Positions 36,506 to 40,708 of a stretch of 64,000 bases of DNA are shown piece after piece. Both the position numbers and the translations under genes were made by a program. The stretch covers positions 1 through 64,000 of the forward strand of contig CALWOA010000008.1 in assembly GCA_944382965.1 (NCBI GenBank), written 5' to 3'. The stretch's first letter is position 1. The number at the start of each line of letters is the position of its first letter. The notes beneath the pieces are model-generated. The model was not told where the DNA came from. It did no database searches and was given only the letters and a program-made list of their open reading frames with translations. This DNA comes from an uncultured Oscillospiraceae bacterium. Its GTDB lineage: Bacteria > Bacillota > Clostridia > Oscillospirales > Oscillospiraceae.

Positions 36506-38503
36506 TTAAGCCCGGGCGCTGAGGGTATATTCTCCGGCCAGTTTTTGGTCGGCCTTTCTGCACAGGCTTACAATGACTGCGGCAATGACAGCCACTACAA
36601 TAAGACCGGGCAGGAATCCAGCTCCCAGACTGCCGGTGGTAATCAACGTACCGATCTGGTAGACCAGGTAAGCAACGGTAAAGCCGGTGGCAAACTGCAG
36701 CGCCACACCGCCCCAGAACCACTTCCGGTCGTTGATTTCCGAGTTCATAGCGCCCAATGCAGCGAAGCAGGGCGGGGTGTACAGGTTGAACATCAGGTAA
36801 GCCAATGCGGCAACTTTGGTGATGGCAAACACACCGGCAACCTCGGCACCGGCGCCTTCCATCAGGGCCAGTTCTTCGGTGTCAATCAGGTTTTCCAATC
36901 CCACGTAGCACACGGCCAGGGTACCTACCACATTCTCTTTGGCGATGAAGCCGGTAACCGCAGCGGCAGCCAGCTGCCAGGATACCACACCCACAACAGG
37001 AACCAGCAGATAAGCAATGGGGCTGGCGATGGTTGCCAGGATGGATTCGCTGGCCACTTCCGCCTCCTGGAAGCTCCAGTTGAAGGTCTGCATAATCTGA
37101 ACTATTGTGTTGCACAGCAGGATGATGGTACCGGCTTTGACAATGTACGCTTTTCCCCGAGAACACATGGCCACAAACGCCCGCTTTACGGAAGGAACTT
37201 TGTATTCCGGCAGTTCCATGATGAAGAAGGACTTGCGGCTTCTGTGCCCGGCAATTCGGTTGACCAGCAGCGCACCCAAAAGAATCAGGGCAATACCTAC
37301 GAAGTACATCAACGTACCCACCCAGGAAGCATCGGCGAAGAAGGCACCGGCAAACAGGGCGATGACCGGCAGCTTGGCGCCGCAGGGCATGAAGGGGGTC
37401 AGCATGGCGGTGGCACGGCGTTCCCGCTCGTTGCGGATGGTGCGGCAGGCCATAACGCCGGGAATAGCACAGCCGGTGCCGATAACGAAGGGAATGACGG
37501 ATTTACCGGAAAGGCCGACTTTCTTGAAGATGGGGTCCAGCACCACAGTGGCACGGGCCATGTAGCCGCAGTCTTCCAGCAGAGCAATCAGGAAGTACAT
37601 CACCATGACCAGCGGAAGGAATCCAATTACTGCAATCACGCCGCCGATAATGCCGTCCACCAGCAGTGCCTGCAAAATCGGTGCTGCATCGGATACCAGT
37701 TCTCCCACCCAGCCTTGGAAGGTTTCCAGCCAGGCGACCAGGGTATCTGCCAGATAAGGACCCAGGGTGGACTGGGAAATATCGAATACCAGAAACATCA
37801 CCAGGGCAAAAATGGGAATGCCCAGCCACTGGTTGGTGAGGATATCATCGATTTTATCCTGGAAGTTCCGCTGCTTGGTCAAAACCTTCCGTGTTTCCAC
37901 CTGGGACACAATGGAATTGACGAACTCGAATCGCTTTTTGTCTGCGGCAATTACCGACTCCTTGTGGCTCAGATCCACAGCGCCCTGGCTGTAGGGCGCT
38001 TTCTGTCCCTTGCCCTGGGCATCCACTGCAGCCCGAACCACAGCAGCCAAGCCCTCGCCGTTGGTGGATACGGTCTCCACCACAGGACATCCCAGCTTCT
38101 GGGAGAGGGCGGAAACGTCAATGGTTGTTTCTTTCTTCTCGTTGATGTCGGCCTTATTCAGTGCAACCACCACAGGAATCCCCAATTCCAGCAGCTGGGT
38201 GGTAAAGAACAGGGAGCGGCTCAAGTTGGTGGCGTCCACAATGTTGATGATGGCGTCAGGGTGCTCATTTTTCACATAGGAACTGGTGATGCTTTCTTCC
38301 GAGGTAAAGGGAGACATGGAGTAGGCGCCGGGAAGGTCAACAGCGATGAGCTGCTGGGAGCCTGCGTAGGCTTTCTTAATCAGCGCCTCTTTTTTGGCCA
38401 CCGTGACACCCGCCCAGTTGCCCACCTTTTCATTGCGGCCAGTGAGGGCATTGTACATGGTGGTTTTGCCGGAGTTGGGATTGCCAGCAAACGCGATTCT
38501 CAT
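36506..38503 (-). CDS. feoB: Ferrous iron transporter FeoB
   Basis: FeoB is a GTPase-coupled membrane transporter for Fe(II). The 665-residue product has the N-terminal G domain with GNPNSGKTT (7-15), DLPG (56-59) and NKAD (116-119), a regulatory helical region to about 230, then the membrane part with two Gate motifs, including GTGCAIPGVMACR. Two cysteines near the gates are present. The ATG at 38503 follows AGGAGGAATCCAAA; a TTG seven codons upstream lies on the other side of that site and is rejected. An operator palindrome sits in the short gap upstream. Confidence 0.95.
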   Translation of the reverse strand: MRIAFAGNPNSGKTTMYNALTGRNEKVGNWAGVTVAKKEALIKKAYAGSQQLIAVDLPGAYSMSPFTSEESITSSYVKNEHPDAIINIVDATNLSRSLFFTTQLLELGIPVVVALNKADINEKKETTIDVSALSQKLGCPVVETVSTNGEGLAAVVRAAVDAQGKGQKAPYSQGAVDLSHKESVIAADKKRFEFVNSIVSQVETRKVLTKQRNFQDKIDDILTNQWLGIPIFALVMFLVFDISQSTLGPYLADTLVAWLETFQGWVGELVSDAAPILQALLVDGIIGGVIAVIGFLPLVMVMYFLIALLEDCGYMARATVVLDPIFKKVGLSGKSVIPFVIGTGCAIPGVMACRTIRNERERRATAMLTPFMPCGAKLPVIALFAGAFFADASWVGTLMYFVGIALILLGALLVNRIAGHRSRKSFFIMELPEYKVPSVKRAFVAMCSRGKAYIVKAGTIILLCNTIVQIMQTFNWSFQEAEVASESILATIASPIAYLLVPVVGVVSWQLAAAAVTGFIAKENVVGTLAVCYVGLENLIDTEELALMEGAGAEVAGVFAITKVAALAYLMFNLYTPPCFAALGAMNSEINDRKWFWGGVALQFATGFTVAYLVYQIGTLITTGSLGAGFLPGLIVVAVIAAVIVSLCRKADQKLAGEYTLSARA

Positions 38504-38554
38504 TTTGGATTCCTCCTCTTTCAATAGATGTTCCTTCAGGCTTAGGTTTTATAT

Positions 38555-38570
38555 GTTAGCAAAAGCTAAC
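38555..38570. promoter_or_regulatory. Iron-operator palindrome 1, between feoA and feoB
   Basis: GTTAGC-AAAA-GCTAAC is a perfect 6+4+6 palindrome 52 bases upstream of the feoB start. On the minus strand it overlaps a possible promoter, TTGACG and TAACAT with 16-base spacing, so feoB may also be transcribed and repressed separately from feoA. Confidence 0.8.
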
Positions 38571-38610
38571 TGGTCGTCAAAAAGAATCAGGAGAACAGAT
38601 TCTCCCGGAT

Positions 38611-38823
38611 TCAAATTTGAATGGCTTCTGCCAGTTGGGGATCAATGCTGTATCTGCCGTCCTTGACGGAGATCACATAGCTGCCCTTCCGTCGGGAGAC
38701 CAGAGTAACGGGTTCGCCGCTGTAGCAGCCCAAGGAGAACAGAAAGGCATTTAGTTCTTCGTCCTCTGTCTGGACCTGGCGGATGATGTATTCGGTTCCT
38801 TCCTGTGCATGGGTCAAATTCAT
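38611..38823 (-). CDS. feoA: FeoA-family ferrous iron transport protein
   Basis: The 70-residue protein is a single SH3-like FeoA domain: MNLTHAQEGTEYIIRQV, LGCYSGEPVTLVSRRKGSYVI and SIDPQLAEAI. FeoA is a cytoplasmic partner thought to support FeoB GTPase activity. The ATG at 38823 follows AGGTGAGGCTT; the frame extends upstream into the operator region without a ribosome site. It is the first gene of the leftward feo operon, followed by feoB and the Cys-rich peptide. Confidence 0.9.
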   Translation of the reverse strand: MNLTHAQEGTEYIIRQVQTEDEELNAFLFSLGCYSGEPVTLVSRRKGSYVISVKDGRYSIDPQLAEAIQI

Positions 38824-38853
38824 AAGCCTCACCTGATTTAGATCATATTGCCA

Positions 38854-38869
38854 ATTAGACATGGCTAAC
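38854..38869. promoter_or_regulatory. Iron-operator palindrome 2, feoA side, distal
   Basis: ATTAGA-CATG-GCTAAC matches the GTTAGC-N4-GCTAAC pattern with two changes. It lies in the transcribed leader of feoA, exactly 33 bases from palindrome 3, about three helical turns. Confidence 0.72.
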
Positions 38870-38886
38870 TGCCACATCAAAAAATG

Positions 38887-38902
38887 ATTAGCGGCCGCTA
38901 AC
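38887..38902. promoter_or_regulatory. Iron-operator palindrome 3, feoA side, proximal
   Basis: ATTAGC-GGCC-GCTAAC matches the consensus with one change at the edge. It begins about three bases after the predicted transcription start of the leftward promoter, where a bound repressor would block initiation. Confidence 0.8.
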
Positions 38903-38911
38903 TTCACGGGT

Positions 38912-38940
38912 ATGATACAGCCAGATCCAGATTTTGTCAA
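38912..38940 (-). promoter_or_regulatory. Leftward promoter of the feo operon
   Basis: Read on the minus strand, TTGACA (38935-38940) and TATCAT (38912-38917) are 17 bases apart. The predicted start near 38905 is just outside palindrome 3. Confidence 0.85.
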
Positions 38941-38990
38941 TACCCTTTTATAAAAAAACTCTTGAAATTATTGAGAATTACTTTCAAAAT

Positions 38991-39006
38991 GTTAGCTTTG
39001 ACTAAC
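38991..39006. promoter_or_regulatory. Iron-operator palindrome 4, central
   Basis: GTTAGC-TTTG-ACTAAC matches the consensus with one change. It lies between the two divergent promoters, upstream of both -35 boxes, in an A/T-rich stretch. Confidence 0.72.
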
Positions 39007-39045
39007 ATTTTTGAAATATTTTCAGCGAGGAACAAAAAATAATTC

Positions 39046-39074
39046 TTGACAAATCCCGGTAAGCAGGGTATCTT
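39046..39074 (+). promoter_or_regulatory. Rightward promoter of the flavodoxin operon
   Basis: TTGACA (39046-39051) and TATCTT (39069-39074) are 17 bases apart. The predicted start near 39081 abuts palindrome 5, mirroring the leftward promoter. Confidence 0.85.
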
Positions 39075-39081
39075 ATTAGTA

Positions 39082-39097
39082 GTTAGCGAACGCTAAC
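39082..39097. promoter_or_regulatory. Iron-operator palindrome 5, flavodoxin side, proximal
   Basis: GTTAGC-GAAC-GCTAAC is a perfect copy placed at about +1 to +17 of the rightward promoter. Confidence 0.85.
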
Positions 39098-39114
39098 TAA
39101 TGTTTGTACAACGG

Positions 39115-39130
39115 GTTAGCTGCTGCTAAC
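39115..39130. promoter_or_regulatory. Iron-operator palindrome 6, flavodoxin side, distal
   Basis: GTTAGC-TGCT-GCTAAC is a perfect copy, exactly 33 bases from palindrome 5, the same spacing as on the feoA side. It ends 25 bases before the first rightward start codon. Confidence 0.85.
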
Positions 39131-39155
39131 TTCTGCGAAGAAACGAGGAATACAT

Positions 39156-39260
39156 ATGATTTCCATAGAACTGTTGCGGACATTGGGGGCCATAGGCGGC
39201 ATCGTGTGCATCCTGCTCCTGTCCGCCTGGGTCAAACAACATCTCAGAAAAAATCAGTAA
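39156..39260 (+). CDS. Small single-pass membrane peptide, iron locus
   Basis: A 34-residue frame starts at 39156 and encodes MISIELLRTLGAIGG, a hydrophobic helix (about 8-26) and a basic tail ending KQHLRKNQ. It is the first frame after the rightward promoter and is followed 19 bases later by DUF3793. The ribosome site (ACGAGGAATACAT) is weak. Its position and topology resemble the small peptides that accompany FeoB. It could be a real peptide or a short chance frame. Confidence 0.5.
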   Translation: MISIELLRTLGAIGGIVCILLLSAWVKQHLRKNQ

Positions 39261-39279
39261 CCATTTTCGGGAGGTTTTT

Positions 39280-39831
39280 ATGTCCGACGATTACCTGATC
39301 CGCAACTGCGCACCTACTTTGGCGGGAATCAAAACCGCAAATCTGTTTACTTGCCCCTTTGATACCCGGGAGGAATTGTTTCAGGCAATCCGGAGAATGA
39401 ACCGACGGCTAACGCCCAAGGGACTGCGGGTGCTGCCCCTTCGGGTGTCCCGGAGCAAGGCGCTGATCTATCTGTACCGACCGGTGAAACTGGCGCAGGA
39501 TCTGTCGGACTGCGTGGCAGTATGTCTGCTTCGCCAGCAGGGATATGTTCCGGGCAGCTGCCAGCAAACGCTGGTGCAGCTGATCCGAAAACTTCGCTGT
39601 CAGGAGGACTTTCCTCATGAAATCGGTCTGTTTCTGGGCTATCCGCCGGAGGATGTCCAGGGATTTATGACCCGGGGGCCTGCCTGCTGCAAATGCAGCG
39701 GCTGCTGGAAAGTCTACGGGGACGAAGATGCTGCCAGAAAGAAGTTTGCCCAATATAAAAAATGCACCCAGATTTACTGCCGGCTTTGGGCAGAAGGAAA
39801 CAATATTGAGCGGCTCACAGTAGCCGGTTGA
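39280..39831 (+). CDS. DUF3793 family protein
   Basis: The 183-residue protein matches DUF3793, common in Clostridia beside flavodoxin and iron genes. The family block HEIGLFLGYPPEDVQGF is near residues 112-128, followed by a cysteine-rich CCKCSGCWKVYGDEDAA segment that might bind a metal or cluster. The start has CGGGAGGTTTTT upstream. The function is unknown; the location under the iron operators suggests a role when iron is scarce. Confidence 0.85.
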   Translation: MSDDYLIRNCAPTLAGIKTANLFTCPFDTREELFQAIRRMNRRLTPKGLRVLPLRVSRSKALIYLYRPVKLAQDLSDCVAVCLLRQQGYVPGSCQQTLVQLIRKLRCQEDFPHEIGLFLGYPPEDVQGFMTRGPACCKCSGCWKVYGDEDAARKKFAQYKKCTQIYCRLWAEGNNIERLTVAG

Positions 39832-39857
39832 TATACCAGATTTTTAGAAAGGTTGGA

Positions 39858-40286
39858 ATGTATATGCGTAAAATTGCAGTTGTTTATTGGAGCGGCACCG
39901 GCAACACCGAGGCAATGGCCCATGCTGTTGCGGAGGGAGCCAAGGATGCCGGAGCCGAAGTTACCATGTTTACCCCGGGGGAATTCTCCGGTGCCATGGT
40001 GGAAACATTTGACGCCATTGCCTTTGGCTGCCCGTCCATGGGCGCCGAGCAGCTGGAAGAAAGTGAATTTGAACCGATGTTTCTCGACTGCAAAGGCAAA
40101 CTGAAAAACAAGCCCATTGCCCTCTTTGGCTCCTACGGCTGGGGAGATGGGGAGTGGATGCGCACCTGGGAGGAAACCTGCCGGGAGATTGGGGCTGATC
40201 TGGTGGCCTCCGGGGTCATCTGCCAGGAAACTCCGGAGGATACGGCCCTGGCGGAATGCCGGGATCTGGGAGCGGCATTGCTGTAA
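39858..40286 (+). CDS. Flavodoxin
   Basis: The 142-residue protein is a short-chain flavodoxin. WSGTGNTEAMA near residues 11-21 is the FMN phosphate loop, and FGCPSMGAEQLEE and FGSYGWGDGEWM are the isoalloxazine loops. Flavodoxins replace ferredoxin as electron carriers when iron is low, which fits its place behind iron-type operators. The ATG at 39858 has AAAGG five bases upstream; another ATG at 39864 also possible. It is followed by a DtxR-like regulator. Confidence 0.92.
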   Translation: MYMRKIAVVYWSGTGNTEAMAHAVAEGAKDAGAEVTMFTPGEFSGAMVETFDAIAFGCPSMGAEQLEESEFEPMFLDCKGKLKNKPIALFGSYGWGDGEWMRTWEETCREIGADLVASGVICQETPEDTALAECRDLGAALL

Positions 40287-40327: not shown

Positions 40328-40708
40328 ATGGGAAGGAAAACCACCCGCCGGGAGGTCTATTTGCATCTGATCTGCCGCTTATCCGGCAAAGGCAAGGTGC
40401 GAGGAGCGGATATTGCCAGAGAACTGGAGGTTTCCCGGCCAACGGTATGCGTGTACATAAAGCACCTGGCGCAGGAGGGGGATGTTTTCATCGATCCCCA
40501 GCGGGGGATCTGCCTGACTGAGCAGGGGAGGGCTGCCATTGCAGTCCACCGGGAAACACAGCAGGTATTATCTGCACTTCTGCAGAGCCTGGGTGTGGAG
40601 GCGGAAACGGCCTGCCTGGATGCGGAGAAAATGGAGCAGCATCTGAGCCGGGACAGCCTGCAAGCTTTGCAGCATCTGCACAGCCAAAAAGAAACTACAG
40701 GAAAATAA
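40328..40708 (+). CDS. DtxR/MntR-like metal-dependent repressor
   Basis: The 126-residue product has an N-terminal winged helix (REVYLHLICRL, ADIARELEVSRPTVCVYIKHL) and the DtxR-type dimerisation helix region ending ACLDAEKMEQHLS. It is the natural candidate to bind the six palindromes upstream and sense iron. Compared with MntR and DtxR the metal site is changed. The positions of MntR Asp8, Glu11 and His103 appear to be Val, His and Gln, while the two glutamates and a DtxR-like Cys remain. The ATG at 40328 follows GGGAGGGGCTGT. Confidence 0.78.
   Translation: MGRKTTRREVYLHLICRLSGKGKVRGADIARELEVSRPTVCVYIKHLAQEGDVFIDPQRGICLTEQGRAAIAVHRETQQVLSALLQSLGVEAETACLDAEKMEQHLSRDSLQALQHLHSQKETTGK

Follow-up and report, generated by a model that had tools for sequence, protein, structure and literature searches.

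In a 64,000-nt stretch of DNA from an uncultured Oscillospiraceae bacterium (the window), six copies of one palindrome accompany the facing promoters of a feoA-feoB operon and a DUF3793-flavodoxin operon. We propose, with a probability of roughly 0.6, that a DtxM-type repressor blocks both promoters, and that the operators lying behind terminator-like hairpins likely hold RNA polymerase on the T-tract while iron is plentiful. From the arrangement of promoters, operators and hairpins we infer that the array adds iron-gated, roadblock-assisted termination to promoter repression.

In the proposed mechanism, Fe(II) would act as co-repressor and Fe(II)-loaded DtxM would sit as a single dimer on each operator. 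On the operators at the transcription starts (O1) of both facing promoters the loaded repressor would block initiation, and on the downstream operators (O2 and O3) it would hinder the polymerase over the T-tract, where the enzyme would stop or release and leave the next gene untranscribed. Under iron scarcity, DtxM would dissociate from the DNA, the terminators would be read through, and feoA, feoB and the DUF3793-flavodoxin genes would rise together.

Six palindromes at a divergent iron locus

An earlier note on this DNA had described six copies of GTTAGC-N4-GCTAAC, paired 33 bases apart at both facing promoters with one copy at each predicted transcription start, a fifth copy between the promoters and a sixth before feoB. 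All of this is borne out in the array (38555-39130), in which three palindromes are perfect, two carry one mismatch and one carries two. On the minus strand, the feoA promoter (TTGACA-17-TATCAT, 38912-38940) is followed by its O1 (38887-38902, one mismatch), by O2 exactly 33 bp beyond (38854-38869, two mismatches), by feoA (38611-38823; Pfam FeoA, 5.8e-13), by the perfect operator O3 in the feoA|feoB gap (38555-38570) and by feoB (36506-38503; Pfam FeoB_N, 5.5e-56). The promoter of the DUF3793-flavodoxin operon (TTGACA-17-TATCTT, 39046-39074, plus strand) faces it and precedes a perfect O1 (39082-39097) and, again exactly 33 bp beyond, a perfect O2 (39115-39130). Then follow, on the same strand, a 34-aa ORF without family match (39156-39260), the DUF3793 gene (39280-39831; Pfam PF12672, 3.8e-56), the flavodoxin gene (39864-40286; TIGR01753, 2.4e-41, above cut-off) and the gene for DtxL (40328-40708), a divergent DtxR-like protein in which most metal ligands are missing. 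The remaining operator (38991-39006, one mismatch) lies between both promoters, and the mirror layout can be read as two promoter-operator modules back to back plus this middle site.

Allowing up to two mismatches, the whole window has seven sites, six of them inside these 576 bp, compared with a mean of 1.5 sites and a maximum of 2 per 600 bp in 60 dinucleotide shuffles of the window. At up to three mismatches the window holds fewer sites than the shuffles (13 versus 17) and is thus no richer than chance, so that only tight matches count and loose ones are meaningless. A known riboswitch or other RNA element was rejected as the source of the array, as an Rfam search of positions 38000-40000 gave no match at E up to 1 and ten loci gave nothing but tRNAs at gathering scores.

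Recurrence of the palindrome at iron operons

The genome-wide motif scan that the earlier note had proposed found seven exact matches to the core TTAGCN4GCTAA in the 2.63-Mb genome (60 contigs), six of them at two feo loci: four belong to this array, two to a second feoAB operon and one to a metal-related cluster on contig C53. The second feoAB operon, 62 kb away, has two operators, placed at the promoter and in the feoA2|feoB2 gap (C8:101047 and C8:101350; L005:6048 and 6351), and the fold test found no terminator in that gap.

Among 150 genomes of the family, 70 contain the exact 12-base motif and 7 contain the pattern read backwards. A FeoB search returned 593 matched stretches, 575 of them encoding a FeoB relative, and the best 80 of 575 were kept; these 80 feo loci, mostly from draft genomes, were thus chosen by FeoB similarity rather than at random, and feoA could be read in 77 of them. 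Sites at up to two mismatches occur upstream of feoA at 65 of the 77 loci, and in the feoA|feoB gap likewise at 65 of 77. Further sites in relatives lie upstream of DUF3793-flavodoxin operons, FecCD-type and other ABC genes, ZIP genes, a P-type ATPase and a methyltransferase.

The nearest named record, Candidatus Faecousia faecavium (L127; FeoB 97%), retains all six sites in register, including the two-mismatch O2 and the middle operator, and its N4 differs in five of the six. Constant half-sites around a variable N4 are as expected for protein-binding sites, and RNA structure alone was rejected on this comparison as the reason for the palindrome; the family profile is undecided on that point since the half-site pattern itself served to select its sites. 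The earlier note had suggested DtxR-type palindromes that switch iron uptake and flavodoxin together, and had held that the array's absence from relatives keeping the genes would count against this. The array is present in such relatives, feoAB and the DUF3793-flavodoxin genes share operators here and elsewhere, and the sites are very likely operators, as predicted, of a DtxR-type repressor. On these comparisons the palindrome is a conserved operator motif of iron operons.

Putative operators at predicted transcription starts and behind terminator-like hairpins

Best promoters upstream of feoA were picked without regard to the operator, and in 54 of 73 feoA loci (4 of the 77 lack a scored promoter or site) the operator begins 7-9 nt past the -10 element, which is about where transcription would start. 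O1 in the window conforms to this conserved geometry, starting 9 nt (feoA side) and 7 nt (DUF3793 side) after the -10, and a repressor on O1 would be placed to block initiation.

The operators further downstream are set behind a different kind of element. The feoA|feoB gap of the window contains a canonical hairpin of eight pairs with a T-rich tail (38607-38578, minus strand; -13.3 kcal/mol), its T-tract 14 nt before O3; the GC-containing stem-loop is followed at once by the T-tract, as in an intrinsic terminator predicted from sequence, and L127 keeps the stem and changes the loop. In the feoA leader a TTTTTT tract (38879-38884, minus strand) is seen between O1 and O2, and the fold test did not flag this O2. 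In the DUF3793 leader, the T-run ahead of O2 is weak (-9.5 kcal/mol, 14 nt).

We applied a strict test, which calls for a hairpin of -8 kcal/mol or lower followed by a T-tract, to the sense strand, the antisense strand and shuffled sequence (given as means). The gap set comprised the 69 relatives with a site within one mismatch of the generic GTTAGN6CTAAC; the feoA loci without a one-mismatch gap site before feoB number 8 or, on recount, 7, each of the 7 with a two-mismatch site. Hairpin and T-tract precede the gap operator in 39 of 69 cases on the sense strand, compared with 2 of 69 on the antisense strand and 2.8 in shuffles. The tandem O2 of feoA leaders behaves alike (14 of 27 sense, 0 antisense, 0.4 shuffles), as does the gene-proximal operator of DUF3793 loci (11 of 25, 1 and 0.9), while O1, which served as control, gives 2 of 67, 2 and 0.6. 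The tandem O2 and O1 sets are each one locus smaller than the 28 and 68 collected, owing to missing full flanks; the DUF3793 set derives from 30 of 64 genomes with a match, from which the locus described here (L300) was left out and 4 of the remaining 29 had no site.

The position of the T-tract is fixed as well. Before the feoA|feoB operator, T makes up 89% of bases at -12 and -11 and 2% at -8; across the three operon contexts its share at -8 is 0-8%, and hairpin and T-tract end 8-10 bp upstream of the later operators. An earlier, laxer terminator test separated the gaps weakly (53 of 70 versus 31 in shuffles), and these fixed-position tests were used instead. With the distance left out of account, terminator-like structures turn up in 50 of 70 operator-bearing gaps and also in 4 of the 7 gaps lacking a one-mismatch operator, so their presence alone is no proof; it is the fixed distance that speaks for coupling.

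Between paired operators, T-runs are found in 25 of 28 O1-O2 spacers compared with A-runs in 5 of 28, while lone O1 sites are followed by a T-run in 15 of 40 and an A-run in 16 of 40. DNA bending by A-tracts was accordingly rejected as the reason for the run, as the sense strand of the spacers carries T, not A. The 33/34-bp spacing can be decomposed into O1, which as RNA is able to form a short hairpin, a T-tract and about ten bases, and a hairpin and T-tract between the operators explains this spacing better than looping or cooperativity. A universal 33-bp spacing was rejected: at feoA 34 bp is commonest (20 of 29 pairs) and 33 bp occurs in 4 of 29, and DUF3793 and ABC leaders range from 25 to 101 bp. 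Five inspected leaders with operators 51-101 bp apart (L111, L118, L119, L121 and L124) have a separate hairpin and T-rich stretch before the second operator; one at 47 bp (L114) passed a loose test and has no real T-run.

The alternatives weighed here are not mutually exclusive. DtxM could bind the array with promoter repression alone mattering, O2 and O3 being auxiliary or cooperative sites and the hairpins ordinary, uncoupled terminators. O1 geometry would by itself suffice for repression, the gap site of the second feo operon has no terminator, the strict test finds no hairpin with T-tract before 30 of the 69 gap operators, and the 4 of 7 gaps mentioned above have terminator-like structures with no one-mismatch operator. 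This account nevertheless leaves the fixed distance between T-tract and operator in three operon contexts, the confinement of hairpin and T-tract to the sense strand and the occurrence of T-runs after O1 when O2 is present but not otherwise without explanation, and a terminator-like structure placed downstream of a promoter but ahead of the first gene calls for a reason; we therefore regard it as a serious but rather unlikely alternative. Less likely still is that O3 marks a separate, repressed feoB promoter and the hairpin ends the feoA transcript, an arrangement compatible with DtxM binding. A weak promoter match (TTGACG-16-TAACAT, 9/12) does overlap O3 in the window, but matches of at least 9/12 occur in 7 of 69 gaps, compared with a mean of 5.1 (largest 11) in shuffled flanks, and a feoB promoter was rejected as a general feature of the gap.

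One point counts against the preferred reading, in which DNA-bound DtxM gates the terminators. At typical roadblock distances the repressor would halt polymerase close to where the T-tract begins, short of the release point, and could hinder or delay release rather than help it.

Candidate regulators

The genome search returned two DtxR-family proteins, DtxL and DtxM, and one Fur-family protein. DtxM, a 121-aa protein, is encoded away from the array (C23:15367-15729) and has an N-terminal iron-repressor HTH domain (PF01325, 1.1e-10, 42 bits versus a cut-off of 26) and a metal-binding and dimerisation domain (PF02742, 1e-12, 48.3 bits versus 27), with ligand residues at all six positions that serve as metal ligands in DtxR and MntR (M9, E12, H78, C100, E103 and H104). 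Pfam finds these first two DtxR-type domains and no C-terminal SH3-like domain, which, at 121 aa, rules out the three-domain IdeR/DtxR type. DtxM resembles MntR and other two-domain regulators in this architecture and has MntR as its best PDB match (6.5e-14), but scores under the NCBIfam cut-offs of both models matched, MntR and DtxR. The M, C, E and H at its ligand positions, which we take to be the metal-binding residues, are nearer DtxR than MntR.

A DtxM-like protein, counted by best match alone where a genome has several paralogs, is encoded by 134 of the 150 family genomes and by 76 of the 80 feo genomes, and at 12 of 80 loci the gene is the divergent neighbour of feoA with a generic site between them. 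Of the 16 family genomes in which no DtxM was detected, five retain the exact motif (G060, G072, G124, G144 and G149), and the four feo genomes lacking a detected DtxM still have operator-like sites; these cases may reflect assembly gaps.

The earlier note had favoured the neighbouring DtxL as the repressor, with the paired sites acting by cooperative binding or looping, and several features are consistent with such a role. Its gene comes after the flavodoxin gene in the same orientation, both DtxR-family domains score above the Pfam cut-offs, and the protein is kept at 84% in the nearest species together with the array. DtxL retains, however, one of the six metal-ligand positions, a single Glu (VHQEEQ compared with MEHCEH in DtxM), and so lacks the ligand set of a metal-responsive family member. 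It also has V at the specificity residue (42 in DtxM), where C-type sites like those of the window go with R, and thus mismatches the array it would bind. No close copy exists in the 149 other family genomes (next best, 42% identity), and the motif persists in two genomes of the same genus that lack DtxL, in one case with a 33-bp pair upstream of feoB's partner gene feoA. DtxL was rejected as the main binder, and the reading built on it is very unlikely; judged by its residues and distribution, DtxM probably fits better as the predicted binder of the array.

Degenerate DtxR-like proteins show a recurring link with DUF3793-flavodoxin operons. Two such paralogs lie directly behind flavodoxin genes in relatives (L124:4951-5334 and L126:1121-1771), with the ligand positions replaced (RLCVLC and RLRAMY). 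Three others lie downstream of feoB (L205:7202-7585, L138:7252-7617 and L156:7389-7766) and have unusual ligand or recognition-helix residues; DtxL may stem from this group.

Covariation of DtxM residue 42 with operator base 6

For the covariation analysis, sites were picked by the half-site GTTAG with base 6 left free, and three feo loci without readable feoA were scored upstream of feoB (L139 gave sites, the other two none). Three of the 76 DtxM-bearing genomes had no scored sites, leaving 73 for the ranking of columns. Residue 42, the equivalent of DtxR Gln43 in the recognition helix, ranks top of the 121 DtxM columns with a score of 0.52, which none of 20000 label permutations reached. The runner-up columns 50, 45, 46 and 9 score 0.49, 0.48, 0.45 and 0.43, and clade effects inflate all column scores. 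Across the 76 DtxM-bearing genomes, base 6 is C in 131 of the 172 half-sites paired with R at residue 42; of the 150 half-sites paired with V, 42 have C and 76 have T. The other operator positions tested (1, 7 and 8) reach at most 0.19 with any DtxM column.

On the FeoB tree, residue 42 changes between R and non-R at least 18 times. Among 11 well-supported tree-independent pairs, an average of 8.1 agree and 0 oppose at a strict cut (median p 0.008), and at a looser cut 7.0 agree and 0.1 oppose (median p 0.016). In the structure of IdeR on DNA, a single base, the first C of CCTAA, receives a direct hydrogen bond, and it comes from Gln43 (PMC8464063). Alignment on CTAA places the covarying base at this position. 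The same study gives normal binding for the Q43A variant (PMC8464063), which makes the Gln43 contact dispensable in IdeR.

The covariation points to DtxM as the regulator. It also weighs against Fur control of the locus with the palindromes serving another regulator. The genome does encode one Fur-family protein, and a Fur-box-like stretch is visible by eye beside the middle operator (38967-38985), but that stretch is absent from L127, in which all six palindromes are present, and we consider Fur control highly improbable.

A wider reading of the DtxM-gated terminators, to which we give slightly less than even odds, is a metal-gated terminator cassette composed of hairpin, T-tract and operator at a fixed 8-10 bp, in which the upstream operator of 33/34-bp pairs doubles as an RNA hairpin. 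The Fe(II)-repressor would then be a termination factor that stops both start and read-through across a large clostridial group, its operator specificity having been switched repeatedly via a single recognition-helix residue.

Relation to known systems

In the DtxR/IdeR system, repeats 1 and 3 of the box TTAGGTTAGSCTAACCTAA are covered by one IdeR dimer (PMC8464063). Together these two repeats read TTAGG-N4-SCTAA and match TTAGC-N4-GCTAA here in half-site, N4 gap and length (14 bp), whereas the full 19-bp box accommodates two overlapping dimers and the sites here hold one dimer's worth. The operator is hence not the classical double-dimer 19-bp DtxR box, a candidate rejected because the 14-bp spacing of one dimer alone is present. 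The sites here are moreover arrayed, at feoA mostly 33-34 bp apart, and differ at base 6, which covaries with residue 42.

The closest published precedent among the literature matches listed appears to be YtgR of Chlamydia, a DtxR-like iron repressor bound inside the intergenic region of the trpRBA operon, where, in the part of the report available, an iron-dependent drop in read-through is described (PMC6504234). Unlike the arrangement proposed here, that part of the report describes no intrinsic terminator at a fixed distance, concerns one locus rather than a regulon-wide design, and includes an alternative promoter in the YtgR system (PMC6504234). Among the matches listed, which covered few subscription papers, we found nothing on this motif or on DUF3793 with iron and nothing on operator-coupled intrinsic terminators, and iron control in Oscillospiraceae and other clostridial anaerobes was not described in them. 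In Bacillus, DNA-bound CcpA and CodY form roadblocks that halt elongating polymerase; we know of no fixed hairpin and T-tract ahead of the operator in roadblocks of this type.

The analysis supplies a motif for iron control in Oscillospiraceae and other clostridial records, together with a candidate regulator and a specificity residue that can be tested. If operator and terminator are indeed coupled, a DNA-binding repressor could by this compact design serve as a conditional terminator, and the wealth of natural variants would allow the effect of roadblock position on intrinsic termination to be measured.

Further loci with operators

On contig C53 of the genome (L006:1223), an exact operator lies behind the promoter TTGACT-17-TACAAT and is followed, over L006:1306-2422, by an ORF for a Cys-rich peptide of 59 aa and a gene for an LCM-type methyltransferase, with a CsoR-like gene and a P-type ATPase gene on the other side; a metallophore-like function of the cluster would be a guess. 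Methyltransferase (L110), ZIP (L114) and P-type ATPase (L116) genes also occur near operators in relatives. On contig C39 (L009:2596), a one-mismatch operator begins 12 nt past TTGACT-17-TATGAT, upstream of a ZIP transporter gene that is a candidate member of the regulon.

The regulon is perhaps enlarged in genome G066 (L120), which has 13 exact operators compared with 5 in the genome described here, some of them beside genes that by eye resemble ABC transporters and a TetR-like regulator. In a genome of the same genus (L107:7854-8160), a DUF2325 gene has its own operator behind a terminator-like hairpin and is followed by the DUF3793-flavodoxin genes.
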